Source: Nicotiana tabacum (Eukaryota > Streptophyta > Magnoliopsida > Solanales > Solanaceae). Taken from it: 64,000 nucleotides of DNA. Positions 356 through 62,457 of the stretch are shown one piece after another. Both the position numbers and the translations under genes were made by a program. Location: NCBI RefSeq assembly GCF_000715075.1, contig NC_134081.1, forward strand, positions 69,494,153 through 69,558,152, written 5' to 3'. The notes under the pieces are model-generated. The model saw only the letters and a program-made list of their open reading frames with translations, ran no database searches and was not told the origin of the DNA. Numbering within the stretch: the stretch's first letter is position 1; every line of letters starts with the position of its first letter.

Positions 356-366
356 TCCTTCTCATC

Positions 367-4576: not shown

Positions 4577-4579
4577 ACT

Positions 4580-13268: not shown

Positions 13269-13648
13269 ATTCCGATCATATCACACAGGAGAAAATAAAT
13301 AATAATACATGTATGTAATGAATGAATAACAAATCTCATGCTCTTGGACTGGTATAAATGACATGCTAAAGTGTAGACATGTGCAAAGTGTGCTATCATA
13401 GCTCAAATCAGCAATTTCATCATAGAATAGCATTTATCAAGTTCATTCACGGGATTAAACTTCTATGTAGCCTCAACATGGCTCAAATAGTTCACAATAA
13501 TGTTACAATTATGCGAGGCATCATAACTTAAAGCTTAACAGTCAATTCTAGGCTTTTCATGGCCTAAGCACAACTCGAGCATGGATAAATACCCCTAGTG
13601 TCAGCACATGGGCTCAAACCCCACACATGTGCGCACCCATAGCACATA

Positions 13649-20026: not shown

Positions 20027-20029
20027 AGT

Positions 20030-20041
20030 TGGTATAAGAGC
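20030..20041 (+). other. Primer binding site of element B (one mismatch)
   Basis: TGGTATAAGAGC differs at one position from the initiator tRNA-Met complement TGGTATCAGAGC and lies 3 nt past the 5' LTR. Confidence 0.88.
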
Positions 20042-20226
20042 CTAGGTTACATAGATCTCACGAGTCATGAGCAGGTTTAGTATAGTCTTATGGATCGGTA
20101 CGGAAACACATGTACTTATCTTCGAGAGGCTGTCGAACCCTTTGGGAAACTTCACTTTCTTGCATTATTGTCGTGCGAATTTGTTAATTCCGGGAATTAA
20201 ACTTCTATTATTCTATTCTCTCACAG

Positions 20227-21048
20227 ATGATGAGGACACATGCTACCGGATCAGGTGGACAGCTACCAGTACCACCAGCCAGGGCCACAAGAGGCCGAAG
20301 CCGCAGTTGAGGCCTAGGCGCAACTAAAGTAGCACTTGTAGACCCACCAGTTGCTCCATCTCAAAAGTAGGTTCAAGATGTGGTTGAGCCAGTGGGGCTA
20401 TCTCAGGCACCAGTTATGCCCATGGTGATTCCAGACCTTGAGGAGGTTTTGGCTTAGATATTGATCGTTTGCACTAGTCTTCCTCAGGCGGTTTCTGTTC
20501 AGACTGCGCCAGCCACTTCTTATACCGGGGGAGGTACTCAGACTCCCGCCGCCCGTACTCCAAAGCAGGTGGTGCAGGGACTTCAGACACATGGGGTACT
20601 ACCAGCCCAGCCGGTTGCAGTTCCTCAGGCCCAGGTGGGTCCCATTATGACTGCTGAGGAGCAGAAGAGGCTAGAAAGATTTGGGAGGCTCAGGCCTCCA
20701 TCATTCAGTGGGGTTGAGACAGAGAATGCTCATGACTTCTTGGATAGGTGCCAGCGGATTCTTCGCACGACGAGTATTCTGGATACTAGTGGAGTCTCCT
20801 TTACTACTTTTCAGCTATCAGGGGATGCCTTCAGATGGTGGGAGGCCTATGAGAGGAGCAGGCCAGTCGGTGCTGCACCACTTTTATGGCATGAGTTCTC
20901 CGTTCTCTTTTTGGAGAAGTTTGTTCCACATACCCGTAGGGAGGAGCTGCGCAGACAGTTTGAGCAGCTACGTTAGGAGGGCATGTCTGTGACCCAGTAT
21001 AGGATGAGATTTTCAAAGTTGGCTCGTCATGCAGTTTGGTTGGTTCCC

Positions 21049-21097
<49 letters not shown>

Positions 21098-21603
21098 TAG
21101 GAGGTTCATTGATGGCCTCCACTATTAGTTGCGTTTTATTATGACTCAGGAGAGTGTATCGGGTACTAGGTTCGACGAGGTGGTTGATATTGCTCGGCGA
21201 CTAGAGATGGTCCGTAGTCAGGAGCGTAAGGAGAGGGAGGCCAAGAGGCCTCGTGGTTCGGGTGGTTTCAGTGGTGCTCCTTCTAGGGGCAATCCTACCA
21301 CAGCAGGGGTCGTCCTTATAAGCCCACTCAGATGGCTCGTCCAGTTCATCGTGGTGCATCAGCTAGCCATGGTTCGTATAGTGCTCGTCCGGGTCAGTCA
21401 TCTCTCAATGCGCTCCCAGCTCAGAGTTCATCCCATGCTCCATCGGTTTAGGGTTCATCTGTGCCAGGTCCTTCTAGCAGTTACTCTGGTACTCGGGGCT
21501 CGATTCAGTCCCCACCACAACCAGCGGGGAGTTGCTTCGAGTGCGGGGAGTTTGGACATATGTGGAGACAGTGTCCTCGTCGCCTGGGAGGTCCAACTTA
21601 GTA
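20227..21603 (+). pseudogene. Element B gag remnant with expanded GA repeat
   Basis: It starts ATGATGAGGACACATGC, the usual N-terminus. The capsid core is at about 20650-20976, with PPSFSGVETENAHDFLDRCQ and DAFRWWEAYE. A CCHC zinc knuckle (C-F-E-C-G...H...C, spacing C2C4H4C) is at 21533-21574. The frame is broken by early stops, by TAG at 20974, by a GA microsatellite at 21052-21094 that shifts the frame inside the conserved E-R-E-R codons, and by another shift near 21290. Normally Gag packages the RNA genome; this copy cannot be translated through. Confidence 0.9.
21052..21094 (+). repeat. (GA)n microsatellite inside gag of element B
   Basis: A 43 bp run of GA grew from the GAG-AGA codons of the conserved gag motif. 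Compared with a basic 12 nt run before the following V-R-R-F codons it carries 32 extra nt, which leaves the downstream frame shifted. Confidence 0.95.
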
Positions 21604-21756
21604 GAGAGGTCAGGCTATGACTTCCGTACCAGTTACTTCACCACCCGCCCAGCTAGCTCGAGGTGGGGCCCAGGCAGCTAGAGGTCGCCCTAGAGGGAGA
21701 GGCCATCAGGTGGTGGTCAGGCCAGATTCTATGCCATTCCTGCAAGGCCAAATGTT

Positions 21757-23318
21757 GCTTCAGATGCAGTGATCACATGTATTGTCTCAGTGTGCCACAG
21801 AGATGCTTCCACATTATTTGACCCTGGTTCTACTTATTCCTATGTGTCATCCTATTTTACTCGTTATTTGGATATGCCCCGTAAGTCCTTAGATTCACTT
21901 GTTCATGTATCTACGCCGGTGGGTGATACTATTATTGTGGACCGTGTATATTGGTCGTGTGTAGTGACTATTGGGGGATTGGAGTCTAGAATTGATCTCT
22001 TATTGCTTAGTATGGTTGATTTCGACGTGATCTTGGGTATGAATTAGTTGTCTCCATGTCATGCTATTCTGGATTGTCACACTAAGAGTGTGATGTTGGC
22101 GATGCCGGGGTTGCCAAGGATTGAGTGGAGAGGTTCTCTACATTATGTTCTCAGCAGGGTGATTTCTTATTTAAAGGCCCGATAGATGGTTGGGAAGGGG
22201 TGTCTGTCATATTTGGCCTTTGTGAGAGATGTTAGTACTGATACCCCTACTATTGACTCTGTTCCAGTGGTGCGAGACTTTCCAGATGTGTTTCTTGCAG
22301 ACCTGCCAGGTATGCCACTCGACAGGGATATTGACTTGGTGTCGGGTACTCAGCCCATTTCTATTCCTCTGTATCATATGGCACCAGCTGAGTTGAAGGA
22401 ATTGAAAGAGAAGCTTTAGGAGCTTCTTGATAATGGGTTTATTAGGCCTAGTGTGTCTCCTTGGGGTGCACCAGTTCTATTTGTGAAGAAGAAGGATGGT
22501 ACTATACGGATGTGCATCGACTATAGGCAGTTGAACAAAGTTACAATCAAGAACAAGTATCCTTTGCCGCATATTGATGATCTATTTGACCAACTTCAGG
22601 GAGCGAGAGTGTTCTCTAAGATTGATTTGAGGTTTAGGTATCACCAGTTGAAGATTCAGGATTCGGATATTCTAAAGACGGCATTCAGGACTCGTTATGG
22701 TCACTATGAGTTCCTTGTGATGTCTTTCAGGCTGACCAATGCCTCAACAATATTCATGCATCTAATGAACAGTGTATTTTAGCCATATTTCGACTCGTTT
22801 GTTATAGTATTCATTGATGATATCCTGGTGTACTCACGTAGCCAGGAGAATCATGCCCAACATTTGAGGATTGTATTACAGCAGCTGAGGGAGGAGAAGC
22901 TTTATGCCAAGTTCTTCAAGTGTGAGTTTTGACTTAGTTCGGTGGCATTCTTAGGGCACGTGGTGTCCAGTGAGGGGATTAAGGTGGATCCAAAGAAGAT
23001 AGAGGCGGTTCAGAGTTGGCCCAGACCATCCTCAACAATTGAGATTTGAAGCTTTCTCGGCTTGGCCGGTTATTATCATCGTTTCGTGGAGGTTTTCTCG
23101 TCTATTGCAGCGCCTTTGACCAAATTGACCCAGAAATGTGCTCCATTCAGGTGGTCGGATGAGTGTGAGGAGAGCTTTCAGAAGCTCATGACTGCCATTG
23201 CTCTTATACAGTGTATTGTGATATTTTTCGGTTTGGTATTGGGTGTGTCTTGATGCAGGAGGGTAGAGTGATTGCTTATGCTTCGCCCTAGTTGAAGCCC
23301 CATGACAAGAACTACCAT
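21757..23318 (+). pseudogene. Element B protease, RT and first half of RNase H
   Basis: The aspartic protease is at 21769-22047 with the active-site region TLFDPGSTYSYVS and the family flap/core FDVILGMN. A linker follows (PDVFLADLPGMPLDRDIDL). RT at about 22440-22930 has [19 protein letters not shown] and FIDD at 22810-22821. The RNase H/linker part runs to 23318, where the CACTA element interrupts it. Stops are frequent (for example after GMN, KEKL, NSVF, KCEF and TIEI) and a frameshift lies near 23205, so the protein is not made. The other half of RNase H resumes at 25551. Confidence 0.9.
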
Positions 23319-25550
23319 CACTACAAGAAAGTATACAATTAGCAATATTTTTTTTGCAACAACAATAATATTGTTGCAAAATACAATAAATGGCAACAAC
23401 TTTATTTAGTTGTTGCTATATCATAGAATTTTTACCCACAAAAAATTTTCTGTTAGCAAAAGTTTTAATATTGTTGCCGTATTTAAAAATAATATAATAA
23501 ATTTTAAATATATATAAGTTAGCAACAACTTTTTAACAACAATACTATGGTTGTTGGCTAAGTATAATAAATGGCAACAACGTAATTAAATTGTTGTTGT
23601 ATCATAGAATTTTTAACCACTAGATTTTTCTTGTTACCAAATATTTTAGATTCTCCTACAAGTCTTATGGATGATACCATGGTAAGTAAACTTATTCTAG
23701 TTCATGTGAAAGGAAATTTCTTGGCTATATATGAAAATGAATCTATTTGAATAAATTAATCTTTGTCTAGTATTTTGTTTCGACTATAGTATTGTATCTC
23801 TGGGAGTATTTAGTAGGTTCTGATGCAATTTTATTTTGGGGAGTACTTTAATCAAGCTTGCACTGCTTACATATCTATTTTTCTTAAGTTGTTGTTGTTA
23901 TTTCTCATTAAAATATGTTATTGGTTTTCCTTAAGTCTTTGGTTTCAAGAAGACTTTGAGAACTTTTGGTCTGAATGCCCATGGGAGGATGACTTGAAAT
24001 ATGCAAAGATTGTTTGTGACCAGGATTATATAACTTCCTCTCTGGCTGTGGAAAATGAAAAAAGGAAAACAAGATAACCATACCAAATACCAAATAGTTT
24101 GAAATAAGCATTAAATTAAGAGTGCTTTCAGTCATGATGCACTTTACCTTTGCACATAATCCAGATTGTGGGTGATTGTTTCTTTCTTAAACAATAGATG
24201 ATCTTCTGGTGCACTTTTTAAAGCTCTAACTTCTGTGTCTCCATAGTCATTGTGGACAATACTTTTCCTCCTTCTCGTTCAGAATTAACTTGCCTCCATC
24301 CCATTTTGACAAAACTTTTCCCTTGTCTAGTAAGACGGTATCCCTAGAAAGATAAATCTTTTGAGGAAATGATTAAGGATGGCATTAGTAATCTGATATT
24401 CCCAACCATGTTTCTGCGTGTGCTTTTAAGGTTGATGTTGTGTTTCCACAAGCTCTTTTCAAGTTGATGTTCCTGTTACAGAGTCATTTTGGTCATCTTA
24501 GTATCTTAATATTTTTTGTGTTGCCTTTACATGATTTCTCGGTGTTATCCCTTCTTGTCTTTCTTTTCATTAATGTGGTGCTTATGCTGTCCTGAGCCGA
24601 GGGATTACTGGAAATAGCCTCTCTATCTTCACAAGATAGGGGTAAGATCTGCGTACACACTACCCTCCCCAGACCCCACTATTTGAGGTTATACTGGAAA
24701 TGTTATTGTTGTTGTTGTAAGTTGTTGCAGTTAAATAAGCTTCCGCTACTTTCATTTTGCACTTTTGTACTTTATTGCTTCTTTTTATCAAAATCTAATT
24801 ATATTTTTTTTTTTTTTAGAATGAGCATGCGTAAACCAACATTCCTGACATCCGATTCACGTAGTGCACAAGTTGGTGGAAGAAGATTTATTTTTTGGGT
24901 TACTATTATAATAGAATTTAAGGACCTTAGATATATGATGCTTTTGTTCGTTTTGTAAGAAAAGATATACTTTTTAGGACTATTTAGTTTTTGAAAGTTA
25001 GTATATCTACTGCATCAATTTTATGTATAAACGCTTTATTTATATATATAAATATAAAATACAATTTATTATTTATACATGTATTTGTAAAAATTTGAAG
25101 AATATATGAATTGTGTATTTAGTAACTACACATAAATTGTTGCCAAAGTAGTACTAGAGAATCTGTTGGAAAAAATAATTATTGCCACAATAATAGTTAT
25201 TGCTAAAAGTATTGATAACAGATTATTAACTTTACCGTCAATTTCTTTAGCAATAACTGACATTGTTGGCAAAAAAGCTAATTTTATCGCAACAATAATT
25301 TTTGTTGGTACATGTCTTCATAATCCACGACCTTTTACTAACAACAAATAACTTATGACAACGATATATATTGTTGCGCTAAGTTACCTTTTGGCAACAA
25401 TATTTTCTGTTGTTGCATATACTTTTCTATCGGTGTTTACTGCAACGGAGTGCAACGACTTCTTTGTCATTGTCAAAAATAATTTTGGCAACAATATTGA
25501 ATATATGTCAACAAAAATTATTGTTGCGAAATGCCTTCTTTCTTGTAGTG
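23319..25550. mobile_element. CACTA (En/Spm-type) DNA transposon, non-autonomous, in element B pol
   Basis: Perfect terminal inverted repeats begin CACTACAAGAAA at 23319 and end TTTCTTGTAGTG at 25550. The 3 bp target site cat is duplicated (23316-23318 and 25551-25553), as expected for the CACTA superfamily. Both subterminal regions (about 23340-23640 and 25130-25550) are packed with gcaaca/ttgttgc words, the usual transposase-binding subterminal repeats. At 2.2 kb it is far too short for an autonomous copy and has no transposase frame. Excision would restore the RNase H reading context across the junction apart from the extra cat. The interior holds a SINE tail and sequence that may be captured. 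Confidence 0.95.
24592..24718 (+). mobile_element. SINE 3' region of the Solanaceae TS type inside the CACTA element
   Basis: The run from gagccgagg through cctctctatcttcacaag, gtaagatctgcgtacacac and taccctccccagacccc to a terminal TTG repeat matches the 3' part of TS-type SINEs as I remember them. I see no clear 5' tRNA-like head (A and B boxes), so it is 5'-truncated or a related short form. Confidence 0.8.
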
Positions 25551-27352
25551 CATGTTCATGATTTGGAGTTTGCAGCCATCGTTCATGCATTGAAGATTTG
25601 GCGGCATTATCTCTATGGTGTATCTTGTGAGGTATTTACGGATCATTGGAGTCTCCAACACTTGTTCAAACAAAAGGATCTAAATTTGAGATAGCGGAGA
25701 TGGTTGGATCTGCTAAAGGACTATGATATCACCATTCTGTATCTCCTCGGGAAGGCCAATGTGGTGGCCGATGCCTTGAGTAGAAAGGCGGTGAGTATGG
25801 GTACCCTTGCATTTATTCATGTTGGTGAGAGACCGCTTGCAGTTGATGTTCAGGCCTTGGCCAACCCGTTTGTGAGATTAGATGTTTCGGAGCCCAGCCG
25901 GGTTCTAGCTTGTGTGGTTTCTCGGTCTTCCTCATATGATCGCATCAGAGAGCGCCAGTATGATGATCCCCATTTGCTTATCCTTAAGGACATTGTTCAG
26001 CACGGTGATGTCAAGGATGTTACTATTTGGGATGATGGGGGTTGAGGATGCAGGGTCGTATTTGTGTGCCTAATGTAGATGGGCTACGTGATTTGATTCT
26101 TAAGGAGGCCCACAGTTTGTGGTATTCCATTCATCTGGGTGCCACGAAGATGTACTAGGAATTGAGGCAACACTATTGGTAGAGGAGGATGAAAAAGGAT
26201 ATAGTGGGGTTTATAGCTCGGTGCCTAAATTGTCAGCAAGTGAAGTATGAGCATCAGAGATCGGGCGAATTGCTTTAGAGGCTTGAGATTCCGGAGTGGA
26301 AATAGGCGCGTATCACCATGGATTTTGTAGTTAGGCTCCTACGGACTTCGAGAAAGTTTGATGCTATTTGGGTGATTGTGGATCGGTTGACCAAGTCCGC
26401 GCATTTCATTCCGGTTGGGACTACTTATTCTTCAAAGCAGTTAGCTGAGATCTACATCTGCGAGAGTTTTTGCCTTCACAGTGTGCTGGTACCCATCATT
26501 TTAGATTGGGGCACGCAGTATACGTCGCAGTTTTGGAGATCAGTGCAGTGAGAGTTGGGCATACAGGTTGAGTTGAGTATAGAATTTCACCCTCATACGG
26601 ATGGACAGTCCGAGCGCACTATTCAGATATTGAAGGATATGCTAGACACTTGTGTCAAAGATCTCAGGGATTCAAGGGATCAGTTTCTACCGCTCGTAAA
26701 GTTTGCCTACAACAACAGCTACAAATCAAGCATTCAGATGGCTCCGTATGAGACTTTGTCTGGGAGACGGTGTCGGTCTCCGGTAGGGTATTTGAGTCGG
26801 GCGAGGCTAGGCTATTGGGTACTGACTTGGTTCAAGATGCTTTGGACAAGGTTAAATTGATTCAGGATCGACTTTGCACGACGTATTCTAGACAGAAGAG
26901 TTACGCAGATCAGAAGGTTCGTAATGTTGCTTTTATGGTATGGGATAAGGTACTATTTAAGGTTTCACCCATGAAGGGTGTTATGAGGTTCGGGAAGAAG
27001 GGCAAGTTGAGCCCTCGGTACATTGGGCCATTTGAGGTGCTTTAGAGGATTTGAGATGTGGCTTGCAAGCTTTCCTTGCCGCCTAGTCTGTCGAGTGTTC
27101 ATCCAGTGCTTCATGTTTCTATGCTCTGAAAGTATATAGGTGATCCGTATCATGTTTTGGACTTCAGCACGGTTCAGTTGGATGGTGATTTAACTTATGA
27201 TATAGAGCCAGTGGCCATTTTGGATCGGCAGGTTCGAAAGTTGAGATCAAAGAACATAGCTTCAGTGAAGGTGCAGTGGAGAGGTCAGCTAGTGGAGGAG
27301 ACTACTTGGCAGATATCCACGCCTATTTGAGACTCCAAGTATGTTTCTAAAC

Positions 27353-27370
27353 ACGTTTGAGGACAAACGT
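27353..27370 (+). other. Hairpin upstream of polypurine tract, element B
   Basis: ACGTTTG, AGGA loop, CAAACGT. Compared with the CGTTCG/CGAACG form in A, C and D, one base has changed on each arm and pairing is kept. Two CpG deaminations on opposite strands could give the same result. Confidence 0.85.
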
Positions 27371-27376
27371 TTGTTT

Positions 27377-27389
27377 AAAAGGGGGAGGA
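27377..27389 (+). other. Polypurine tract of element B
   Basis: AAAAGGGGGAGGA immediately precedes the 3' LTR TG at 27390 and would prime plus-strand DNA synthesis. Confidence 0.9.
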
Positions 27390-30300
27390 TGTAACGACCC
27401 GGTCGGTCATTTTGAGTTTTGTAGCCCCGTTCCCCCATTTACTGCTTACTCTATGCTAAATTGTTGTTATGTGACTTGTCGGGGTAGTTGGTTCGGTTCC
27501 GGGGATGTTTCAGAATGAGATGAGACACATAGTCTCAAGGTTGGAAGCTTAAGTTGAAATAGTTGACCGGATATTGACTTATATGTAAATGACTCCAAAA
27601 TAGAGTTTTGACGGTTACGATAGCTCCGTAGGGTGATTTTGGATATAGGAGTGTGTCTGAATAGTGATTTGGAGGTCCGTAGTTGATTTAAGCTTGAAAT
27701 GACAAAGTTGGAAATATAGAAGTTTTGGAAATTGAGAGTTGACTTTATGGTTACCGGGCTAGGATTTTGGTTCCAGGAGTTGGAGTAGGTTCGTTGTGTC
27801 ATTTATGACATGTGTGCAAAATTTGAGGTCAATCAGACTTGATTTGATAGGTTTCGGCATCGATTGTAGAAGTTAAAATTTATTAGTTTTCGTTAGGCTT
27901 GAATTGGGGTGCGACTCGTGTTTTTGATGTGATTTGAGGCCTCGACTAAGTTCGTATCATGTTTTAGGACTTGTTGGTATGTTTGGTTGAGGTCCTAGGG
28001 GCCTCGGGTGGAGTTCGTTTGGTTAACGGATCAAAGTTTGGAATTGAAGGACTGCTGAAGTGCACCAGGTCTGGTGCGATCGCACCTGCGGAGATTTGGT
28101 CGTAGGTGCATGGCCGCAGAAGCGAAGGATTGGTCACATATGCAGTTTGGGCGAAGCTGGGCAGTGGCCGCAGGTGCGAGGGTTTGTCTGCACCTGCGTG
28201 GTCACAGATGCGGGGATGGCGTCATAGAAGCGAGGTTGATTTGGCTGCCGATGGGTCGCAAGTGCGAGGGAAATGCCGCATCTGCGAGCCTGCAGATACG
28301 TGTGTGACTCCGCATAAGCGGAGGATGAACTAGAAAGGGTAGTTCGCCGAAGCAAACCTCATTGCGCAGGAGCGAGCCCGCAGATACGGGATTGGGGGCC
28401 GCAGAAGTGATGGAGCGGAGTTCCGCAGATGTGAAGATTTGACCGCAGAAGTGAAGAAAAGGGTCGCAGGCGCAGAAAGCACTGGGCAGAATATAGGTTA
28501 AAGGATATTTTGTGATTTTTATCATTTTGGACTTTGCAAACTCGGACTAAGGCGATTTTTGAGAGGGATTTCGAGGGATTTCTTGAGGTAAGTCACTTGT
28601 CATCATTTTTATTCAATAATATTGTTTCCCCACTGAATTTCCCACCTAGTTTGTGTATTTTTTAGGTGGAATTTTAGGAGTTTAAGGCTAGGGATTTGGA
28701 GAGTTAAATTTGGGGATTTGAGTGACGATTTGGTGTCGGAATTTGGTAAATTTGGTATGGTTGGACTCGTGGTTGAACGGGCTTCCGAATTTTATAACTT
28801 TTATCGGATTCCGAGACGTGGGCCTGGGGGTCGACTTTTGAGTTGACTTTTTGACTTTTGATTAAGAACTTAGATTTTTATAGGGAATTGATTCCTTTAG
28901 CTCGTGTTGAATGTATCGAATTATTTGTGGCTAGATTCGAGGCATTCGAAGGCCGATTCGCGAGGCAAGGGCTTGTTGGAGTAGAGATTTGCATGGTTTG
29001 AGGTAAGTAATACTTCTAAACTTGGTTCTGAGGGTATAAAATCCCGAATTATGTGTTATGTGATTGGTATTGAGGTGACGCACATGCTAGGTGACGGGCG
29101 TATAGGCGTGTACCATAGGAATTGTGACTTGGTCAATTCCGTGGAACTGTATAGTTGAATAATCTTATCATTATCCGTATATTCTCTATGTGTTAGAGAA
29201 ATTGAGCTGCAAGTCATATTAAAAATCATGCTTAGGCTACATGCTGGTACTGTTGGGACCCACATAGGTCGAGTTGTATGTTGAATTATTTGCTTAATTT
29301 GCAATTATGTACTGAGTCACAACTATTATTTGCATATCATATCTCAGTCTCTATTGCCATTTATTGATACATCATATCATCATTGTTTGGGCTGATTATC
29401 ATGATTCTTGTGAGCCCGAGAGACTGGAGAGATTGATGACTAAGTGAGGCCGAGGGCCTGATTGTGAGGATATTTATGGGATCGGGCTGCATGCCGCAAC
29501 AGACTTTATTTATTCATGTCATGATTGGCTTATTATAGCGCTTGGGTTGGATCTGCCCCTCGGGAGTCTGCATACCCACAGTGAGCGCAGGTACTTACTG
29601 AGTGCGAGTGCCAAGCGCGAGTGCCGAGCGATTGGGAGGATTGAGTGACTGTGATGATGGAGTGAATGTGAGGAATGAGTGACTATGAGGATGGAGTGAA
29701 TGTGAGGATTGAGTGATTGTTACTCTAAGAGTATGCATATGATTTCATCACTGTTTTTGTACTTCATTTGGCATACGTAATTGACATGTAGATATCGAGA
29801 TATATCATTTCTTATCTCATCTGTACTTGACATATCCTACCTGTTTGGGCTTTATCTGTTAAATTTGGAAGCATGTCTACTTTTCTGTTCTTTATTTATG
29901 TAATTGAACTGTACCTGTGAAGCCCGTCATTGCTTTCAGCCCAATAGTTAGACTTGTTGCTTACTGAGTTGGTTGTACTCACGCTACACCCTGCACTTCA
30001 TGTGCAATTCCAGGTGTTTCCAGACATTGTGGTTGCTGATTATCAGAGTTTTCAATCATTCAGAGATTATCGAGGTAGCTGCCCTAGCGTCCGCAGACCT
30101 TGACTCTCCTCCCATATCCCTGAGCTTTGCTTATTCAGTTTATACTTTTCTTAGGCAGTGTATCAGACTTTGTATTTGTATAAATGCTCATGTACTCAGT
30201 GACACCCGCATTTTGGGGAACTTCTCTATTGAGTTGTGACGTTTTCATCCGATTTTTATGAGATTTTCACCTATTTAAATTTGTTTTAGTATATTCTGAA

Positions 30301-45135: not shown

Positions 45136-46778
45136 ATTTCGATTAGAAGCAAGAAGTCACTGAATGTTGGATATGTTCTTACTTTTATACTTCTTGTCAT
45201 TTGAATCATTTTCATTTGAGGCCATAAGTATAATTTTGGCAAGCTAGCTTTTACAGTCTCTGATTTCGTGGATTATGGAACTACTGGTAGTACTTGATAG
45301 AAATCACCTTCTAAACTATTACTTTTTCACTAAACAGTTCATTGATATCCAATATATTTCTAAAACTCTAGGCAATTGTTTCGATCCTTTGACGCTTATC
45401 CATGAGCACTTCATCCCATATTATCAATATGACTTTCCTTATAAACTTAGCACTATTGCTCTGCTTTGATATATTTGTGATGGTTATTTCAGTTGTTTGA
45501 AGAGGTATATCAAATATAAAGTGAGTTGTACGACCTCATAATAAAATCGTTGATGGTACACCATTTGTTATTATTGCTAACAGTATCATGCCTCTTGATC
45601 TCACATTTGCAAGTACTGTATAACAGAGGAATATTATTTTGATTCTACAAAGGATGATTCTGCTATACCAGAGTCGACTCTTTATAATATAATATTGAAA
45701 GCTTGTCTTATTCATGATTTAGCTTTGAGTGTGCTTCCTCGGGCACTTGTATGGCCTTCTTAATACTATATTAATCTTTTTTACTTTGTGATCTATTTCT
45801 TTTAATCTCTAACGCTCTTTTATAGAATAAATTTATGTACCCTAAGATTTTTATTTTTAACTTGAAAAATAATTTTACTCATATGATGAATTTAAAGAAT
45901 AATTGAATTGAATTCTCTTAATAAATAATTCTTGAAAGATTTGATTATTTGGTCTTAACATAAAAAATATTTATATTCTATTGATTCAGATTCTTAATAT
46001 TAGTTCATCTATTATTTTGAATATTTAATCATAATTATAATTTATCCACTATAAATTTTATTTTCAAAGAGTTAAAAGATCGATCTGACATTCCATTTTT
46101 AGATCTTTATGTTTGCAAAATTATTTGTGGTATTAACTCTCACTTACAGTTTTCTTTCTCTTTATCACACATTTATATTCTTAAAATATTTCTTAGTTTT
46201 TCTTTAGTAATTGGGTATATTTTTCAATATTACATGAAAAATTAATAATAATAAAATATTATTTGAGTAGGAAAGCAGTTCAAATATAATAGAAAAAATA
46301 TATTATCGTGGGGATTTTTTCTTCTTAATTTTAACATTTTATGCAGTCCATTTAACATTACTTTCATTTTTTCTTTGAAATTGATTTTATTAAACCTTCC
46401 AACATATTTTTAATAAGAATTCAGTAGACAAAATTTTATTAATTTTAAAATATTAAATATTAAAAGAATTAACATAGAAGTTATTGTAGTCCAAAAAATA
46501 AGTTATTACAATTATGTCCTTTCACTATGAGTTCTTCTGTTTAATATATTAGAGCTATTTTGGTCTATCAATATTGTATTCGGGCTTTTTATAATAATAT
46601 AGGCTCTCCTTTTTTCTAAATGGATTTGAACAATATAATACATTCTCAAATTAAATTAGTAGTAGAAAAATTAATAAATTTCAAATTAAATTAGTAATAG
46701 GAATTTATTAAGAAGTGTATCCTAAAAGTAATAGGATTACATGGCAAAAAATATGTCTCTATCCCGAAAGTAATTATT
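45136..46778. other. AT-rich spacer between elements C and D
   Basis: No gene supported. Very AT-rich, with short poly(T)/poly(A) runs. The last ~270 bp, with ctaaaagtaataggattacatg and cccgaaagtaattat, belong to a repeated sequence that continues at 56857-57050 beyond element D. Confidence 0.5.
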
Positions 46779-49700
46779 TGTAACGACACATCCGGTCATT
46801 TTGAGTATTACAGTCCCGTTCCCCCATTTACTGCTCAATTTATGCCTTACAGTTGATTTATGACTTATCAGATTAGTTGGTTCGGGTCCGGAAGATTTCG
46901 GAGTGAAATGAGACACTTAGTCTCATTATTGAAAACTTAAGTTGAAAGAGTTGACCGGATATTCACTTATGTGTAAACGACCTCGGAATTGAATTCTAAT
47001 GATCAGAATAGCTCCGTATGGTGATTTTGGACTTAGGAGCGTATCCGAAAAATTATTTGGAGGTCCGTAGTAGAATTAGACTTGAAATGGCAAAAGCTGA
47101 ATTTTTAAAAAGTTTGATCGGGGAGTTGACTTTTTGATATCGGGGTCGAAATCCGATTCTGAAAAATTTAATAGGTCTGTTATGTCATTTATGACTTCTG
47201 TGCAAAATTTAAGGTTAATCGGACGTGATTTAACTTTTTGGCGTTGTTTGTAGAAATTAAAAGTTTCAAAGTTCATTAGGCTTGAATTGGGGTATGATTT
47301 GTGGTTTTAGTGTTGTTTGAGGTGATTTGAGGGTTTGACTAAGTTCGTATAATGTTTTAGGACTTGTTGGTATATTTGGTTGAGGTCTCGAGGGGCTCGG
47401 GTGAGTTTCGGATAGTTAACGGATCAAAAATTTGGACTTGAACAGCTGTTGAAATTTTCTAATATCTCAGTTTGTTTTTCTTCAACGCGATCACGTGAAT
47501 GTGTCTGTGATCGCGTAGGCTTAGTGGGGCAATAAGGTTTTATTCTATGCGATCGCGTGGGGATATCCGCTATCGCGTAGGGTTAACTCGGGGGCTGCTA
47601 AGTTTTGTTCTATGTAATCGCGTGAAGAGAGATGCGATCGCGTAGCTCTAGAATTTTGTGACTCGCGAACACGTGAAGAAGGTCGCGCTCGCGTAGAGTA
47701 AGTGGAGCGGAAATATAAGTCACGCGTTTTGTGCTTCGCGATCGCGTGGACGAGTCCGCGATCGCGTAGGTCTGTGATGTTGTGTATCGCGATCGCGTGG
47801 GAAGGTCCGCCATCGCGTAGAGGTAATTTGGGCAGTAGAAATATTGTTCTTAGCGATCGCGTGGGAATGATCGCGATCGCGTAGAGCAAATGGCTGGGCA
47901 GAGAGTTTAAGTTCTAAAAATGGGATTTCATCCCATTTTTCATTTATGGCGGATTGGAGCTCGGGAAGAGGCGATTTTTGGGAGATTTTCAGAGGAAACA
48001 ACGGGGTAAGTGTTTTTAACTCAATATTGGTTAAATTACCCGAATCCATGGTTGTTTTTAACATTTAATTGGTGAATTAAGTTAGAAAATTGTGAAAAAC
48101 CCTCTTGGTTTAATTTGGAGATTTGAGGGTCGAGTTGACGTCGGATTTGAGTAAAATTAGTATGGTTGGACCCGTGGTTGAAAGGACATTCATATTTTAT
48201 AACTTTTTTCGGGTTCCGAGACGTGGGCCCCACAAGTGATTTTTGAGTGTAATTTCGGATTTTGTGGAAAAAGTAGTATTTTGATATGGAATAAATTCTT
48301 ATAATTTGGGTTGACTGAATCAAATTAATTGTCACTATATTTGAGCCGTTCGAAAGTTGTTACGCGCATAATGGAATTTCTCGAGCATTGGTTAGCTTGC
48401 TCGACATTGGATTCGGCTTGTTTGAGGTACGTAACTCTTTTAATCTTTGAGCTAAGGGTACGAACCCTGAATATACGTATTATGTGAATTGTTTGGCGGT
48501 GACGCACATGCTAGGTGATGGGCGTGTAGGCGTGCACCATAGAAATTGTGACGTAATTGTTTCGTGAAATTTTATAGTCAAATAATCTTGGCATTTTCCA
48601 TGCAGTTTTATGTGTTAAAGAAATTGAGCTGAGAATCATATTAAAAATTAAATTAAGGCTATGTGCCAGTATTATTGGGCCCCACAGAGGTCATATTGCT
48701 GTGAATTATTTGTTTTAAATTGAAAATTCATACTCAGTCATATTCATTTCATTGCATATCATATCTCAGTCTTTGTTGTTATTTGTTGATATACCATATC
48801 ATCATTTTCGAGCTATTTTCATGACATTGTGAGTCTGAGAGACTGGAGAGATTGACTTTATTATAGCACGTGAGTTGTCCATGCGGATACAGATATTGAT
48901 ACTATAGCGCGTGAGTTGTCTGTACAGCACGTGAGTTATCCGTGCAGATTATAGCGCTTGGGCTGAAGGAGCCCCTCCGGAGTCTGTACACACCCCCAGT
49001 GAGTGCAGGTACCTACTGAGTGCGAGTGTCGAGTGCCGAGTGCAAGTGCCAAGCGATTGGGAGGATTGAGTGACTGTGAGGATTGAGTGACTGTGAGGAC
49101 TGAGTGATGGAGAGGACTGAATGAATTGATACTCTAAGAGTATGCATATGAGTTCATCTTTGAGATACATTGCATTGACATGCACACATGACATACAAAC
49201 AAAGAGATGTTTTTTTCTCATGCTGTATGATATTACATCATTCATGATTTCTCACACATGTTGGCATATGGGCATAGTGATGCATTTGTTTTACACTGGT
49301 TATCTGGATAGAAAAATGAAACATCATATTTATTATTGAAAGGATTTTGGAAAAATTATTGTTTTCAAACTTATTCATATTTTTTGCAACTCCGGTAAAT
49401 GATTATGGTTTCCATTGATGTACTTGAAAGGCAAAACTATTTTCAGAAATCATGATTTTGCTGAGCATTTGATTGTTGAGTTACTTCTGGTATTACTTGT
49501 TTACGTTATTATGGACTGTTGTGGACTATTGGTTTTGGACCCGACCTTGATACAAGTTCGTCACTACTTTCAATCTAAGGTTAGGTTTGTTACTTATTGA
49601 GTACATGGGATCGGTTGTACTCATACTACACTTCTCCACCTTGTGTGCAGATGTTGGTTGTTTTCGTTGGGAGATGGATCTAAAGATGTACCTGTGTTCC

Positions 49701-49980
49701 GGTGGTAGCTGCCTCTTGTTCATGGTAGCCTTAGATTCATAAAACTCTGTTTATGTACTTTTCAAACTGATGATGTATTTACTTCATACCAGTTTTATAA
49801 ATTCTAATCTTAGAAGCTCATGATTTGTACTACCAGTCCTTGGGGAATGTATAAGATTTAGATATTTTATTTTACCTAATTGTCTTGCTAAATTACATTG
49901 GATTTGGATAGTGGATAGTTGGCTTACCTAACGGGTTAGGTTAGGTGCCATCACGACTAGGTGGAGTTTGGGTCGTGATA
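46779..49980 (+). repeat. 5' LTR of element D, 3202 bp
   Basis: It begins TGTAACGACACATCCGG and ends GGGTCGTGATA (CA changed to TA). It carries the GCGATCGCGT array at 47480-47885, three gcacgtgagttgtccgtgc-like hairpin words at 48866-48945, and a gtgaggattgagtgact run near 49060-49110. Confidence 0.93.
47480..47885 (+). repeat. Paired CpG palindrome array, 5' LTR of element D
   Basis: Seven pairs of gcgatcgcgtgg ... ccgcgatcgcgtag occur about 55-60 bp apart. Within a pair the two words are separated by roughly ten bases. Some copies are decayed at CpG (gtgatcgcg, gcgatcacg). The same array occurs in the 3' LTR at 54365-54770. Confidence 0.9.
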
Positions 49981-49983
49981 AGT

Positions 49984-49995
49984 TGGTATCAGAGC
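49984..49995 (+). other. Primer binding site of element D (perfect initiator tRNA-Met match)
   Basis: TGGTATCAGAGC lies three bases after the 5' LTR. Confidence 0.95.
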
Positions 49996-52900
49996 TCTAG
50001 GTTCATAGGTTCTATAAGTCATGAGCAAGTGTCTAGTAGAGTTTTTCGAATCGGTATGATGACGTCAATACTTATCTTCGAGAGGCTACAGGGCATTTAG
50101 GATAATTTCCCATCTTTCTTTCTTTATCGTACGGAATTGATTAAGCTTCAAATATAACTCTTTGAATTCCTTCCACACATTCGTATGTGCATATGAGTGC
50201 TCGGTATCAGATGTGCATCGCCGGCTTGTGATTCCATGGATGAGGTTCGAGGTGAGTATTCTGTGTTTTAGTGATGAGCCAGTCTGGAGGACTTGAGGCC
50301 ATGGTTAGACCGAACCTTAAGCTCAATAGCTTCAGTTGTAACTTGTACAATTTGACTCATATGTCCGGTAGTGACCCTACGAGTGGAATTTGTGGCTCGA
50401 TAAGCGGTGGAATGGTTGTGTGATGGGTATGATGTGACCGCGGGATGTGTTAAGACGATTTGAATATGACAGAAAGTGTTTCCTTGAAATGTAAAGGAAA
50501 AGCCATTGGGTGCTTGATTTTCAATTTGATGTGACGTACAGTCTCGAGTATGAATGTTTTGAAGGATATTTCACGTTGTTAAATTTTGGGACAAACTAAA
50601 TTCTCATGTCTTGTTAATAAGTTTGGACTTGGAAAGATTAAGTGATTGCATAATAATTGTGACTGCGAAAGGGATAACAAGATACCAATTTGAGGCTAAG
50701 CATGTGGGTTATCCCCTGCGGAGCAATCTACGTAGGTATGTTCCTTATATGTGAGTGGAGAGTTTTTTTTCTTCCAGCAGGGCGTATGTGTGTAGATTTG
50801 AATTTGAATCTGGCTGAGAAAGTTGACTTGAGTGTCAAGAGAATGATTGCGAACTTAGCGGATGATTTCAGGTATTTTTATGGTTGGTATTGCATGAGTT
50901 TGAAAAGAAGTTTCGTTGAACTGACTGTGGCATTATGGAAGTAATAAAGTATTGATATTGTGAGTTATGGAATATTTAAATCTGTGGCTTTGAGCTAAGT
51001 GGGGGAGCCTGCTATTGATAATTCAATTTCATAGTTATATGTAAGGTTTAGTTTTGGGCTGAAGCATACTGGTGGGTTAGTTATGATTTGCAGAAGTTGA
51101 GATCAAGGATGACTCGAATAAGGAAATTTCTGGATACGGGTTATATTGCACTTATGAGTATATGAAAATTGTGGGATGAGTGAGTTGTTATTTGTGAATG
51201 ATATAGTGTGCACGGAGTATGAATTTGATAGGTGGTATTAAAGTAGAATTACTTCTTTGAGTGTTGTTGTGCTAATGGGGCACGTGTCTTTTGGCCTATT
51301 TGGGCGGTGTAATGTAGATTTGAACAAAGGGGGTGACTCTCGAAAAAGTTCTAATGGATTCGAGATTAATATGTAATAATTGAGAATTTTTGGCGGATTT
51401 GTTTATGGCAAAAATCTGAGATTTAAGTTGGATGGTGTCGAGACTTGTGGCATTTTTGTATATCATTATGGATTTTATATTTCGGTATCAGGAAGGTGAA
51501 TGAAACGATCTTAGACTTAAATAAGGTATTTTCATAGTGGGTGTTTCGGTTGTGGTATTTATAGGGTAATCATGATGCGGTGAGACTCTACAGATGTTTT
51601 GGTGGCAATATTCTTGGGTTTTGGTGACCTACGTGGTTTGGACGAGTTAGAGGAATTTATTTCTGATAGCTCGATTAGGTGTAAATGGATTTCAAAGCGT
51701 TCTTAATGGTTTCTACCATGGTTTGAACCGGATATTTTCTACTTGTGTGGGAAATGTGTTGTGTATTGTGATTTACTCCTAGAAGGAAGAAAGATGAAGG
51801 TTTCTAACTAACCAGGTATGTAATTTGCTGGTGACTCAGAGTTGATAATGAGATTCTTGTGCTTATCATATGATGGCATAATAGATGTGGTGTATTGTGC
51901 GGGATTAGGATTTACATGTACAAGGTGACAGTTCAGTCTTGAAGAGAAGGTAACGAATGTTGGACAGCATGGTCAGTTTCAAATATTTCGATGAATGTTA
52001 TAACTGCTCAGTAATTCCTGATAAGGGTGCGCATTTTCAGAAGGCGCGTTGTGTTTTGACTTACGGATGTTCATCGGTATTGCAGTACTCACCTGGTTGA
52101 TAGACTGTTGATATTCAAATTATTGCTATGTGGCACGGAAGAATTATGAAAGTATTCCTCATGGGATTATCGTGAATGGAAGATGTGTTAGTCATTTGAG
52201 TGTTGGAATTGGGATCAGTTACGGTGATTCATGTATTCGATGAATTAGGAGACTCGGAGTTCTCAGAAGTATGTTATTTCAGGTTGCAGCCTATTTGAGG
52301 TTAGTATTTTATTTTAACTCAGTGGAGGCACTAGTTGCGTTAATTATTTGTGATAGCTACACGCTATAAGTGTGCATATATGTGAGATTTGAGCCAATGT
52401 GCGGGCATTGGGGCAGGTATTTATACTCGGAAGAATGCTTAGGCTATAATATGCCTAGAGTTGACTGTTAAGCATAAAGTTATAATGTTTTTCATATTCG
52501 TACCTTTGTTGAGAACTATCTGGGCTATACTTGAGGTTACAAAGAAGATGATTCCCTAAATAAACGGGGTAGTTACTAATTCTGCATTAAAAAATGCCGA
52601 TTTGAAGTGTGATAGCAGACTTTGCACATGCTTACACTATGGCGTGCTATTTATACCAGTCCAGGAGCATGAGAATCTTATTTTATTATCATATACAAGT
52701 GTACTTGTTTAATTACACATGTATGATATGCGGGGACTGGAGCCCTGTGACCATGCCGGGCGATTCATATTATTGGCATGTGAGTTGTCCGTGCCGTGTG
52801 TGAGAATTTTATTTCTATGATAATTTATCTGATTTATTAATTTCCTCCCTCTACAATTATGCACATGAGCCTATGGTTATCCTCTTCACGAAATTTGAGG

Positions 52901-53620
52901 AGTTGGTTGTAACATTGTGGTTGTGGTGGTGCTTGTTGAACTTGCAATACGGTTCTCATCCTTGAGACATCTCCTATATTTGGGTACACTAACTGTGCAG
53001 ATGTTACTGGAGTTATATTGATGTGGCGTGTCCGTGGGATAGTTGCATTTAATAATGTAATGTCATTGGACCTAAAATGGGTACTATCATGTTTGATTAC
53101 AGTATATTCAGAAGGATAATATTGAAAGTCGGCTTAGAAAGTGAGTATGGTTCTGGTTGGGGCGAGAGAGCTCTATGGCTAGTTGATCTGATGAGTGGTT
53201 ATGAGATTTTGATTGTTTCTTTCATCATTGGCAGTGTACGAAGGTTTCAGAATGAGGTTCTGTTGAATGCAGGGTTTTATACTAGTACTTGGTTGGTTTT
53301 GAGTAGTTACTGTGATCAGAAATGGTGCTACGAGTATGCGAGTTGTGTAGTATGTTATGTGATTATATATGAGATTATGGTCATGGATGAATACAGCTTG
53401 TTCAGCTTATACAATGTATATATGTGAGATTCGGATCTTGAAAAGAATTCTGAATGTTAGAATTTGGCTCCAAGGTTTTTGTTTTGGGGCTAAGGTTAAA
53501 TTAAGGATTTTCAGTTGTATTGTGTTGTCAGGCCTATGTGGAATGGGGTGGTTAGGATCACCCCGGGTATGTGCATGTTAAGGTGAAATAGATATTTGAA
53601 GGTTAAGAACAACTCTTGGC

Positions 53621-53638
53621 ACGTTCGAGGACGAACGT
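53621..53638 (+). other. Hairpin upstream of polypurine tract, element D
   Basis: ACGTTCG-AGGA-CGAACGT is identical in core to elements A and C, although D has no pol gene to encode there. Confidence 0.92.
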
Positions 53639-53657
53639 ATGTTTAAGTAGGGGAGAA

Positions 53658-56600
53658 TATAACAACCCAGCCGGGTGTTTTGAGAATTACAGCCATGTTC
53701 CCCCATTTACTTCTCAATTTATGCCTTGAAGTTGATTTATGACTTATCGGGTTAGTTGGTTCGGGTCCGGAAGGATTTCAGAGTGAAATAAGACACTTAG
53801 TCTCATAATTGAAAACTTAAGTTGAAAAAGTTGATCGGATATTCACTTATGTGTAAACGACCTCAGAATTGAATTCTGATAATTTCAATAGCTCCGTATG
53901 GTGATTTTGGACTTAGGAACGTGTCCGAAAAATTATTTGGAGGTCCGTAGTAGAATTAGGCTTGAAATGGCAAAAGCTGAATTTTTGAAAAGTTTGACCT
54001 AGGAATTGACTTTTTGATATCGGGGTCGAAATCCGATTCTGAAAATTTTAATAGGTTCGTTATGTCATTTATGACTTGTGTGCAAAACTTAAGGTCAATC
54101 GTATGTGATTTGATAGGTTTTGGCATTGTTTGTAGAAATTAAAAGTTTCAAAGTTCATTAGGCTTGAATTGGGGTATGATTCGTGGTTTCAGTGTTGTTT
54201 GAAGTGATTTGAGGGTTCGACTAAGTTCGTATAAAATTTTAGGACTTATTGGTATATTTGGTTGAGGTTCCGAGGGGCTCGGGAGAGTTTTGGATCGTTA
54301 ACGGATCAAAAATTTGGACTTGAACAGCTGTTGGAATTTTCTGATATCTCAGTCTATTTTTCTTTTACGCGATCGCGTGAATGTGTCTGCGATCGCGTAG
54401 GCTTAGTGGGGCAGTGAAGTTTTGTTCTATGCGATCGCATAGGGATATCCGCGATCGCGTAGGGTTAACTGGGGGGGCCTACTAAGTTTTGTTCTATGCG
54501 ATCGCGTGAAGAGGGATGCGATCACGTAGCTCTAGGATTTTGTGACTCGCGAACGCGTGAAAAAGGTCACGTTCGCGTAGAGTAAGTGGAGCGGAAATAG
54601 AAGTAACGCATTTTGTGCTTCGCTATCGGGTGTATGACTCCGCGATCACGTAGGTCTGTGATGTTGTGCATTGCGATCGCGTGGGAAGGTCCGCGATCGC
54701 GTATAGGTAATTTGGGCAGTGGAAATATTGTTCTTCGCGATCGCGTGGGAATATTCGCGATCGCGTAGAGCAAATGACTGGGCAGAGAGTTTAAGTTCTA
54801 AAAATGGGACTTCGTCCCATTTTCCATTTATGACAGATTGGAGCTCGGAAAGAGGCGATATTTGGGAGATTTTCAGAGGAAACAACGGGGTAAGTGTTCT
54901 TAACTCAATATTGGTTAAATTACCCAAATCCATAGTTGTTTTTAACATTTAATTGGTGAATTAAGTTAGAAAATTCTGAAAAATCCTCTTGGTTTAATTT
55001 GGAGATTTGAGGGTCGAGTTGACGTCGGATTTGAGTAAAATTAGTATGGTTGGACCCGAGGTTGAAAGGGCGTTCATATTTTGTAACTTTTGTCGGGTTC
55101 CGAAACGTGGCCCCCACAGGCGATTTTTGAGTGTAATTTCGGATTTTGTGGAAAAGTAGTATTTTGATATGGAATAAATTCTTATAATTTGGGTTGACAG
55201 AATCAAATTAATTGTGACTAGATTCGAGCCGTTCGGAAGTTGTTACGCACAGAATGGAATTTCTGGAGCATTATTTAGCTTGTTCGACATTGGATTCGGC
55301 CTGTTCGAGGTAAGTAACTCTTCTAATCTTGGAGCTGAGGGTATGAACCCTGAATATACGTATTATATGAATTGTTTGGAGGTGATGCACATGCTAGGTG
55401 ATGGACGTATAGGCATGCACCATAGAAATTATGACGTAATTATTTTGTGGAATTTTGTAGTCAAATAATCTTGGCATTTTCCATGCAGTTTTATGTGTTA
55501 AAGAAATTGAGCTGAGAATCATATTAAAAATCATGTTGAGGCTATGTGCCAGTATTATTGAGACCCATAGAGGTCATATTGCTGTGAGTTATTTATTTTA
55601 AATTAAAAATTCATACTCAGTCATATTCATTTCATTGCATATCATATCTCAGTCTCTATTGTTATTTATTGATACATCATATCATCATATTCGGGCTATT
55701 TTCATGACATTATAAGCCCGAGAGACTGGAGAGATTGACTTTATTATAGCACGTGAATTGTCCGTGCGGATACAGATATTGATACTATAGCACATGAGTT
55801 GTCTGTGCAGCACGTGAGTTGTCCGTACAGATTATAGCGCTTGGGCTGAAGGAGCCCCTCCGGAGTCTGTACACACCCCCAGTGAGCGCAGGTACCTACT
55901 AAGTGCGAGTGTCGAGCGATTGGGAGGATTGAGTGACTGTGAGGATTGAGTGACTGTGAGGACTGAGTGATGGGGAGGACTGAATGAATTGATATTCTAA
56001 GAGTATGCAAATGAGTTCATCTCTGAGATACATTGTATTGACATGCACACATGACATACAAATAAAGAGATGTATTTTTTCTCATGTTGTACGATATTAC
56101 ATCATTCATGATTTCTCACACATGTTGGCAGATAGGCATAGTGATGCATTTGTTTTACACTGGTTATCTGGAAAGAAAAATGAAACATCTTATTTATTAT
56201 TGAAAGAATTTTGGAAAAATTATTGTTTTCAAACTTATTCATATTTTTTGCAACTCCGGTAAATGATTTGGGTTTTTATTGATGTACTTGAAAGGCAAAA
56301 CTATTTTCAGAAATCATGATTTTGCTGAGCATTTGATTGTTGAGTTACTTCTGGTATTACTTGTTTACGTTGTTATGGACTGTTGTGGACTATTAGTTTT
56401 GGACCTGACCTTGGTACAAGCTCGTCACTACTTTCAATCTAAGGTTAGGTTTGTTACTTATTGAGTACATGGGATCAGTTGTACTCATACTACACTTCTC
56501 CACCTTGTGTGCAGATGTTGGCTGCTGATGTTGCTGTGTTCGTTGGGAGCTGAATCTGAAGATGTACATGCGTTCCGGTTGTAGCTGCCTCTTATTCATG

Positions 56601-56856
56601 GTAGCCTTTGATTCATAAAACTCTGTGTATGTACTTTTCAAACAGCTGATGTATTTACTTCATACCAACTTTGTAAATTTTAATCTTAGAAACTCATGAT
56701 TTGTACTACCAGTCCTTGGGGAATGTATAAGATTTAGATATTTTATTTTACTTAATTGTCTTGTTAAATTACATTGGAATTGGATAGTGGATAGTTGGCT
56801 TACCTAACAGGTTGGGTTATGTGCCATCACGACTAGGTGAATTTTGGGTCGTGACA
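53658..56856 (+). repeat. 3' LTR of element D, 3199 bp
   Basis: It begins TATAACAACCC (TG changed to TA) and ends GGGTCGTGACA. It keeps the order and almost all sequence of the 5' LTR, including the GCGATCGCGT array (54365-54770) and the hairpin words (55746-55835). Confidence 0.93.
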
Positions 56857-57600
56857 TTATTATACTAATAAAAAATATAGCGTATTTCTAAAGGTATTAG
56901 GTTTACATGCTAACATGTAGTATAATATATCTATGCCCGAAAGTAATTATACTAATAGGATTCTTAAAGGTAATCATGTAGGATTCCTAACGTGTAGTAT
57001 GTCCTAAAACTAAAAGGATTATAAGGCTAATGTCTAGAATTCCGGTTATGTCCTTTTATTGTGAGTTATTATGCTTAATATTAATTAAAAGTTTATTTTT
57101 GTAAACCAGTATTATATTCATGCTTTTATAATAATATAGATTATTAGTGCCTTAAATTAGGGGATTCAATTACATCATTTTTTTTTCTCCTCTCCTCTTT
57201 CCCATAGTGCCTTAAATGTAGTATTTATGTAAAATGAAAAGGAGAAAAAGTATTATTTAAGAATCACTTCCTCTCTAAAGAAAAATCGGAAACATTGAAT
57301 CCCATTCTTAATGGAAAGATTTTGCCGAATGCCGAATGTCCTTATGGACAGATTTTCATGACAATCCAATTCAAAATTAGACTGACTTACACGTCCTTTA
57401 CTTTACAACTATCCAATTTCAAATTGGATTAAGTATTTACTAATATTTTATATACAACTATTATATATATATATAAATAAATATTAATTGTGAGTACTAA
57501 ATATATTAAGGATACGCAGATTAATTCAATACAAATGATAAATTGCATTAGATTAAACAGATAAAGGACGTAATAAACTGTCAAACCAATTAAGGGGAGT
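56857..57600. other. AT-rich spacer, continuation of the repeat split by element D
   Basis: No gene. Words such as cccgaaagtaattatactaataggatt (56937 on) resemble the other flank of D near 46710-46778, so D landed in an older AT-rich repeat. 57140-57260 resembles 36655-36770. Confidence 0.5.
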
Positions 57601-61296: not shown

Positions 61297-62358
61297 GTGC
61301 CTTAGGGATTTTTGTCTTTGGTTTTGCATTTTGTATATTTATTTTGTTGAGGCCTTTTTCATTGGCCTTTGTAAAGACATTCTGAATGTATATATAAGGT
61401 TTTTTCCCTTTTGGCAATTTTCAAGTCTATTACCTTTAGCATTCTTTTTACAATTGCAAAGGTTTCAAATGCCTTAGCACGGAATAAAACGTAGTAATAA
61501 GTTGTTTTTCGGAGGTCCGAACAAGACTTGTTGTCGATGCAAGTTTTGTTTAAACTTGTGGGGCCTCGGAATGACTAGAAGCCTTCCCCAAAATACTTAT
61601 TCAAATGTTTTTAGACTATAATATTGCCGAGGATAACCTTTGAACCAGTTTGAAATTTTGAAGGCCTTATGTTTTGATTAGGGGCTTCGGACGTCTCCGA
61701 GCTGCTTTTAGGGTGGTCGTAGCCTTTTAGGTTTGGGCACTGCCTAATAGGTCTTGTGCCTCCGAGTTTCGATAATCCGAGCCGTCAAAACTTATCAAGG
61801 ACGGCAGTCCCCGAGTGGGGGTAGCCCTTTGGGCTCGGATAGGGGTGGCCCTTGGGCTCGATAATTCTCGGGCAGTAGTAGCCCTTAGGCTCGATACTTT
61901 TAAGAAGCAAAAAATGTTTGTTAGCAAGGTAGAGACTCTCTTTCATTTCTGTGCATAATGTACAAGATTGTATAAAAGCTCGTATTGTGACCGGTATGAC
62001 CTACGCGGGGACTGTTCATTTGACAATTTGGCCCTTACAATGAAACCTAACTACCGAGCCTAGATTGATCGAGCACAGAGTTTCCTTCCTTGCTAAAAAT
62101 CATGACCCGAGGGTGACGGCCCCCATTATTCGAGGTCGATTGTTGAGAGGGATCGAATACTATTGATGTGACCATTAACTCCGATTCAAAACCGGTCTTC
62201 GATTCTAAGTTAGCACGATCCATTGTTACCTCGTTAAAAACCTTACCGGAAAACCTATTTGGGACAAAACAGGTTCAAGGGAAAAAAGTGTAACGTACAC
62301 TTTCAGGCCTAATAACTAAATCATCCTTTGGTTGTTGCCTGTAAGTTTAGTCCAATTC

Positions 62359-62360
<2 letters not shown>
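61297..62360. other. Non-coding spacer of the Tat element with short GC-rich repeats
   Basis: Lies between the antisense ORF and pol. It contains three imperfect copies of gtagcccttnggctcg-at at about 61820-61895 and a conserved-looking block near 62220-62300 (ctcgttaaaaacctta, ttgggacaaaaca-gttcaaggg). No gene seen; small open frames are without motif. Confidence 0.5.

Positions 62361-62361
<1 letters not shown>

Positions 62362-62434
<73 letters not shown>
62362..62434. repeat. (AT)n microsatellite, about 73 bp
   Basis: An uninterrupted AT dinucleotide run directly downstream of the pol stop of the Tat element. It can fold back on itself and is likely length-variable. Confidence 0.97.
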
Positions 62435-62442
<8 letters not shown>

Positions 62443-62457
62443 GAATGGGGTCGTACC

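Follow-up and report, generated by a model that had tools for sequence, protein, structure and literature searches.

The window analysed here, a 64,000-nucleotide stretch of the Nicotiana tabacum genome (contig NC_134081.1, positions 69,494,153 to 69,558,152 of the forward strand), carries at 46779-56856 an element, designated D, which is a large retrotransposon derivative (LARD) of the Tekay/Del chromovirus lineage, a lineage name taken from passages of PMC4029996 and PMC10817978. D is composed of two long terminal repeats (LTRs) bounded by a target site duplication (TSD), with a primer binding site (PBS) and a polypurine tract (PPT) enclosing an interior that recurs in many independent copies and lacks the gag and pol of an autonomous chromovirus. 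Its LTR ends, its leader and the sequence preceding the PPT are homologous to those of chromodomain-bearing Ty3/gypsy elements, the chromodomain-type end having been read by eye, not profile-scored, in the window elements B and E and at the genomic locus L077. A multi-copy LARD family that combines a conserved non-coding interior with chromovirus signals is strongly supported, and very probably D is one copy of such a high-copy family, which would have arisen from an autonomous element, been copied in trans and exchanged U3 modules as set out below. The other labelled elements of the window are A (minus strand, about 1-7610), B (17081-30209), C (a minus-strand LTR at 12156-16248), E (pol at about 38.9-42.5 kb) and F (a minus-strand LTR at about 30.2-33.3 kb).

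The TSD, LTR pair, perfect PBS and polypurine tract announced in the preliminary description are all found at D, whose parts read on the plus strand. The 5′ LTR (46779-49980, 3202 bp) and the 3′ LTR (53658-56856, 3199 bp, beginning with TA, not TG) are flanked by identical TSDs, TTATT, at 46774-46778 and 56857-56861. When joined, the flanks of D resemble by eye a repeat unit of the right flank, as expected for an insertion into a repeat. Three bases after the 5′ LTR, the exact PBS TGGTATCAGAGC, which we take to be of the initiator-methionine tRNA type, occupies 49984-49995; 3.8 matches to this 12-mer are expected by chance at up to two mismatches, so that its weight comes from its position and not from the match alone. 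The 5′ leader (49981-50219) has homologues in the leaders of two elements of autonomous type: identity is 74% with A over 49981-50171 and 66% with B over 49981-50219. It is followed by the LARD-specific non-coding interior (50220-53592), kept as a block across the genome, then by a remnant of the pol C-terminus, TFEDERMFK-stop (53618-53650), kept in the LARD family, and by the purine-rich PPT AGGGGAGAA (53649-53657), directly before the 3′ LTR. One interior segment of about 530 bp (52289-52820) is homologous to a central part of the C-type LTR, matching its minus-strand positions 14694-14623 and 13656-13189 with a z of 53 against shuffles. The intervening part of the C-type LTR (13657-14622, about 970 bp) is absent from this segment and is possibly a nested insertion. 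In the U5 end of D, GGGTCGTGACA, GGG occupies -9 to -11, one position away from the type A att numbering (-8 to -10) given in passages of PMC4029996.

The D interior was searched in the 3.996-Gb assembly, which comprises 700 contigs, about 24 of them chromosome-sized (C25 is only 6.8 Mb). With 50150-50950 (801 bp) as a query, all 40 scored places, the best 40 of 8,427, span nearly the full query; one is the window copy and the other 39 are 89-93% identical to it. With the whole 3.4-kb interior, 14 of the 39 other places among the best 40 of 19,256 match over the full query, to within 4 bases, at 84-91% and the rest are partial, the first-look counts of 8,427 and 19,256 being loose candidates, not copy numbers. 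A LARD-specific 30-base junction gave 6,699 sites at up to two mismatches, against 0 for the reversed control; what is counted here are 3′ junctions and not intact elements. From the 801-bp search, the ten sister loci at ranks 2-11 were fetched as separate end pieces. Distinct perfect TSDs bound five of them (TACTC, GAAGT, GTTAT, CAACT and, as taken from the printed flanks, GTTGG), and a sixth shows ATACC/ACACC, a 4/5 match; for L026/27, L036/37 and L038/39 both ends could not be judged. L034/L035 is a rearranged LARD locus, in which the flank of the 3′ end recurs after an additional LTR, and was excluded from the dated and TSD counts (computed Kimura two-parameter distance, K2P, 0.076; apparent TSD AACCC). 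A literature search on LARDs with Solanaceae, Nicotiana or Tekay found no description of the D family in titles and abstract starts, subscription journals being mostly outside its coverage.

These copies bear directly on the possibility that D arose when unrelated sequence replaced or filled the coding region of an ordinary chromovirus at this locus only. Within the window such an origin would look plausible, as the D interior has homology to other elements only in the leader, in the last ~65 bp with the pol tail and in the piece related to the C-type LTR. However, the whole interior recurs at many places, in sister copies with TSDs of their own, and this genome-wide recurrence rules out a one-off filler with practical certainty, in keeping with the preliminary description, which had proposed a large non-autonomous element and a search for such copies. 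Multiplication of the copies by segmental or tandem DNA duplication, and not by retrotransposition, could in turn account for L034/L035, where the flank is repeated, but it concerns one of the ten sister loci, and the scatter of the copies over 13 contigs argues against it, as do the distinct perfect TSDs of five loci and the 4/5 match of a sixth; on the strength of the distinct TSDs this explanation, hardly credible, was also ruled out. It could further be supposed that the interior was not non-coding from the start but descends from a novel gene, captured or of retroviral accessory type, that has since decayed. Indeed, a 123-aa frame at 53056-53427 has a database relative, the only one given by a protein search, which is 80% identical over 85 ungapped residues. 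This relative comes from a 514-bp contig, though, and is explained by DNA-level homology. Furthermore, one forward frame of the interior holds 81 stops, the interior contains no stop-to-stop frame of at least 150 aa, and variable sites in 29 copies show no codon-position periodicity (maximum χ2 of 4.2, 2 degrees of freedom, 300-bp windows tested). Comparison of the interior with the rest of the window by tblastx found no pol, while in the positive control B recovered both A and E (printed E-values of 0.0). For the retroelement domain search suggested earlier, Pfam was run on 10 of the 22 frames of the interior that reach 50 aa, the other 12 not being scanned, and returned no match above cutoff. 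A coding interior was dropped in view of tblastx, Pfam and the missing periodicity, and the initial assertion of an interior without gag or pol stands; a decayed gene appears improbable.

A similar comparison of the LTRs revealed that positions ~1-480 and 1300-2080 are common to the family, whereas the module between them is not. In D this exchangeable U3 module, recognised from the sister loci, lies at 47260-48100. At nine of the ten sister loci the U3 is of a second type; these modules are 85-92% alike among each other, and their matches with the D module are short (34-89 bp). At L039 the U3 is partly D-like, with a match of 278 bp at 82%. The D module itself is found at 38 scored places outside D, at 83-89%. 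Ten of these loci (ranks 3-12 of 40) were classed by means of 300-bp pieces on either side: the D-type U3 stands beside gag or pol at three and beside the D interior at two, while L072 shows an E-like leader only and two further loci are not classifiable. Among the first three, L074 and L082 adjoin sequence homologous to the start of the B gag frame (open over 99 aa in L074, with one stop in L082), and at L077/L093 the LTR adjoins pol with a chromodomain-type end. The module is 87-89% identical to that of D at the gag- or pol-bearing loci, as against 86-88% at two other LARD copies. Since it occurs both beside gag or pol and beside the LARD interior, U3 exchange between LARD and autonomous elements is the simplest reading; a precedent for the exchange of LTR parts is described for grass CR elements in passages of PMC4079200. 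Fast divergence of one ancestral U3 could also yield two types, but the flanking LTR parts are still ~80-89% identical between types, and each module is kept over its own copy set, the second type at 86-90% at scored places outside the query element; this alternative we judge unlikely, if less so than a decayed gene. At L081 and L085 the D-type U3 is preceded by sequence that ends in a D-like tail and is otherwise without A, B or E match, perhaps a second LARD family.

The D module also contains a CpG island of CGCGATCGCG repeats, inside the U3 of both LTRs (47489-47938 and 54358-54817), with a CpG observed/expected ratio of 1.95 and a GC content of 0.50 in its best 400-bp window. According to passages of PMC4029996, Del LTRs of five eudicots have no CpG islands. 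By a simple sliding-window criterion, islands are present in A, B and C too, whereas of the eight sister LTRs with the second U3 type seven show none.

Directly upstream of the PPT, the motif CGTTCGAGGACGAACG is exact in A, E and D and has two mismatches in B (four matches, compared with 0.24 expected). This is the element described at first as a pre-PPT hairpin common to D and its relatives; its presence in A, B and E holds, but its identity is that of the last pol codons, encoding a C-terminal tail that reads ..FEDERLF-stop in A and E, FEDKRLF in B and TFEDERMFK-stop in D. In 29 copies, the non-CpG sites of 53618-53648 diverge by 2.2%, against a median of 10.7%, which places this stretch at rank 17 of 3517 overlapping 31-bp windows, but only at rank 184 when CpG sites are counted. 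A protein search with the pol-tail piece of D found no relatives, and in 120 fetched integrase relatives, which mostly end before the tail, the only tail-like motif was one loose match that is not the tail. Two plant Del-type integrases stand under Corynebacterium and Rhizobium records (P0058 and P0098), probably by contamination. An exact scan of viral contigs for the pre-PPT motif gave 13 loci, by our own estimate about chance level for 16 bases, and the LTR-end plus PBS motif was found in neither viral contigs nor prokaryote genomes (0 in each).

Divergence of the LTRs allows D to be dated. Described at first as near-identical, they have in fact only 92.7% identity, with 169 transitions and 64 transversions over 3181 aligned sites, or a K2P of 0.078. 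With the rate applied in passages of PMC10817978, 1.5e-8 per site per year, this corresponds to an age of about 2.6 million years. The comparison proposed with A and B nevertheless gave D the lowest value (0.116 for B; 0.130 for A, from 343 aligned bp only), so that of the alleged most recent LTR insertion it can be kept that D is the youngest of the datable pairs, C, E and F having been left out of the dating. Five of the six TSD-bearing sister loci, with both LTRs aligned, have K2P values of 0.071, 0.079, 0.081, 0.065 and 0.078, that of L024/L025 coming from a 5′ LTR of 2646 bp against 3245 bp. The further remark that the parasite outlived its hosts fits this window only. Integrase copies 88-94% identical to that of E are abundant in the genome, many of the listed ones in open frames of up to 1507 aa, and the general form of the remark was dropped on this account.

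The D family is distributed unevenly over the assembly. In the 801-bp search all 39 non-self scored places, and in an exact-marker search all 58 non-self exact places, fall on the same 13 contigs (C2, 4, 9, 12, 13, 14, 15, 17, 19, 21, 22, 23 and 24). For the second U3 type, 38 of 40 places are on these favoured contigs, the others being on C18 and the unplaced C26. Listed places of the E-type integrase cover all 24 large contigs, 37 of the 150 being on the other 11. On C22 all eight exact marker places lie below 55 Mb of 234 Mb, a pattern that fits a mixed chromosome if contig numbers equal chromosome numbers, as Nt17, Nt18, Nt21 and Nt22 are named as mixed in passages of PMC10235133. Nine favoured contigs other than C22 measure 102-154 Mb, C18 161 Mb, C1 at least 181 Mb and C3 at least 185 Mb. 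Since the favoured contigs are smaller, and the N. tomentosiformis genome (1.74 Gb) is smaller than that of N. sylvestris (2.32 Gb; sizes from passages of PMC10817978), they probably represent, with moderate confidence, the N. tomentosiformis-derived (T) subgenome.

Collectively, these data suggest the following origin for the D family. An ancestor would have kept the autonomous LTRs, PBS, leader, last ~10 pol codons and PPT, everything between leader and pol tail being replaced by a 3.4-kb non-coding block, ~530 bp of it related to the LTR of another member of the lineage. The D RNA would be packaged by the Gag of autonomous chromoviruses with compatible LTR ends and reverse transcribed and integrated by their Pol, and U3 modules could be swapped by template switching between co-packaged RNAs. 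The D-type U3 module and LTR ends that adjoin gag or pol elsewhere in the genome suggest, indirectly, that D may be mobilised in trans by an autonomous partner; passages of PMC4029996 likewise raise the possibility that LARDs borrow machinery from elements whose att sites are the same as theirs. The burst of copies may have taken place before hybridisation, about 2-3 million years ago, within a single diploid progenitor that was probably of the N. tomentosiformis lineage. A further possibility is that LARD and autonomous relatives form one recombining population, swapping U3 modules by template switching in shared particles, and that the last pol codons also work in cis, as a signal for replication beside the PPT; the parasite would then have kept these codons after losing the rest of pol on account of this role. 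We advance this combined proposal tentatively, and on balance lean slightly against it.

Several observations weigh against this origin of the D family as a trans-mobilised, U3-exchanging LARD. The mobilisation itself was not observed. Among the loci examined, no partner was found that has both LTRs, gag, pol and a match to D along the whole LTR; in the pol-bearing copy, the LTR match to D (80%) extends over 1-2171 and is absent from the last third, and 1.6 kb of its pol contain six stops. Only two further copies with both the D U3 and the D interior were seen (L079 and L090), although coordinates point to a third on C9 near 43.59 Mb. The restriction to 13 contigs is strong, not absolute: a one-mismatch marker is on C10 at one of 41 listed places (among the first 100 of 212), and the first 100 exact junction sites listed include one on C1 and four on C3, besides 56 on C2 and 39 on C4. 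The name given to the favoured subgenome is itself deduced from contig sizes. Finally, no conserved RNA structure was detected in the interior (0 of 48 windows at z < -3, with up to 16 sequences and a power limited by their 9-16% divergence). Conserved interior RNA secondary structure is reportedly a property of barley LARDs; it is not treated as a defining feature here.

Elsewhere in the window, a palindromic (AT)36 repeat occupies 62352-62449, and a 54-bp tandem array at 16248-16652 abuts the start of the C-type LTR. A scan of the whole stretch with Rfam gave no match at gathering scores.

LARDs of the barley Sukkula type are among the known elements closest to the D family. The D family resembles them in its long LTRs, ~3.5-kb conserved non-coding interior, PBS, PPT, TSDs and high copy number, but it is derived from Tekay/Del, retains the last pol codons, shows no RNA fold in the windows scanned, has a U3 module also present beside gag or pol, and shows nearly all its listed copies on a single contig set. 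The noaCR5-Sb element and CR recombinants of grasses, in the passages of PMC4079200, are similarly chromovirus-derived non-autonomous copies beside autonomous ones, with 5′ and 3′ LTR parts swapped by recombination, for which template switching is proposed there; those elements are of the CR clade and centromeric, whereas the D family belongs to Tekay/Del, in a Solanaceae genome, with thousands of junction sites. With the autonomous Nicotiana Tekay/Del elements treated in passages of PMC10817978, D shares LTR termini, PBS, leader, pol tail and PPT, as judged from the window elements, and differs by having no gag or pol. The annotation described in these passages kept only LTR predictions with protein matches, and its methods imply that it would drop LARDs like D. 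In Capsicum, again of the Solanaceae, passages of PMC7076952 report non-autonomous LTR-retrotransposon copies that lack full coding capacity, some of them Tekay/Del, and that outnumber putative autonomous ones, but their non-autonomy stems from lost LTRs, lost genes or inverted stretches; those passages contain no occurrence of 'LARD' and mention no conserved non-coding interior.

Protein-filtered transposon annotation, as applied to the published tobacco assembly, would miss the D family. LARDs are often described without a known partner; with the D U3 module present both on a LARD and beside gag or pol, partner relationships as well as packaging and recombination signals become testable. Furthermore, as the family is nearly restricted to one contig set, it is a candidate marker for the subgenome, and its burst would predate hybridisation.
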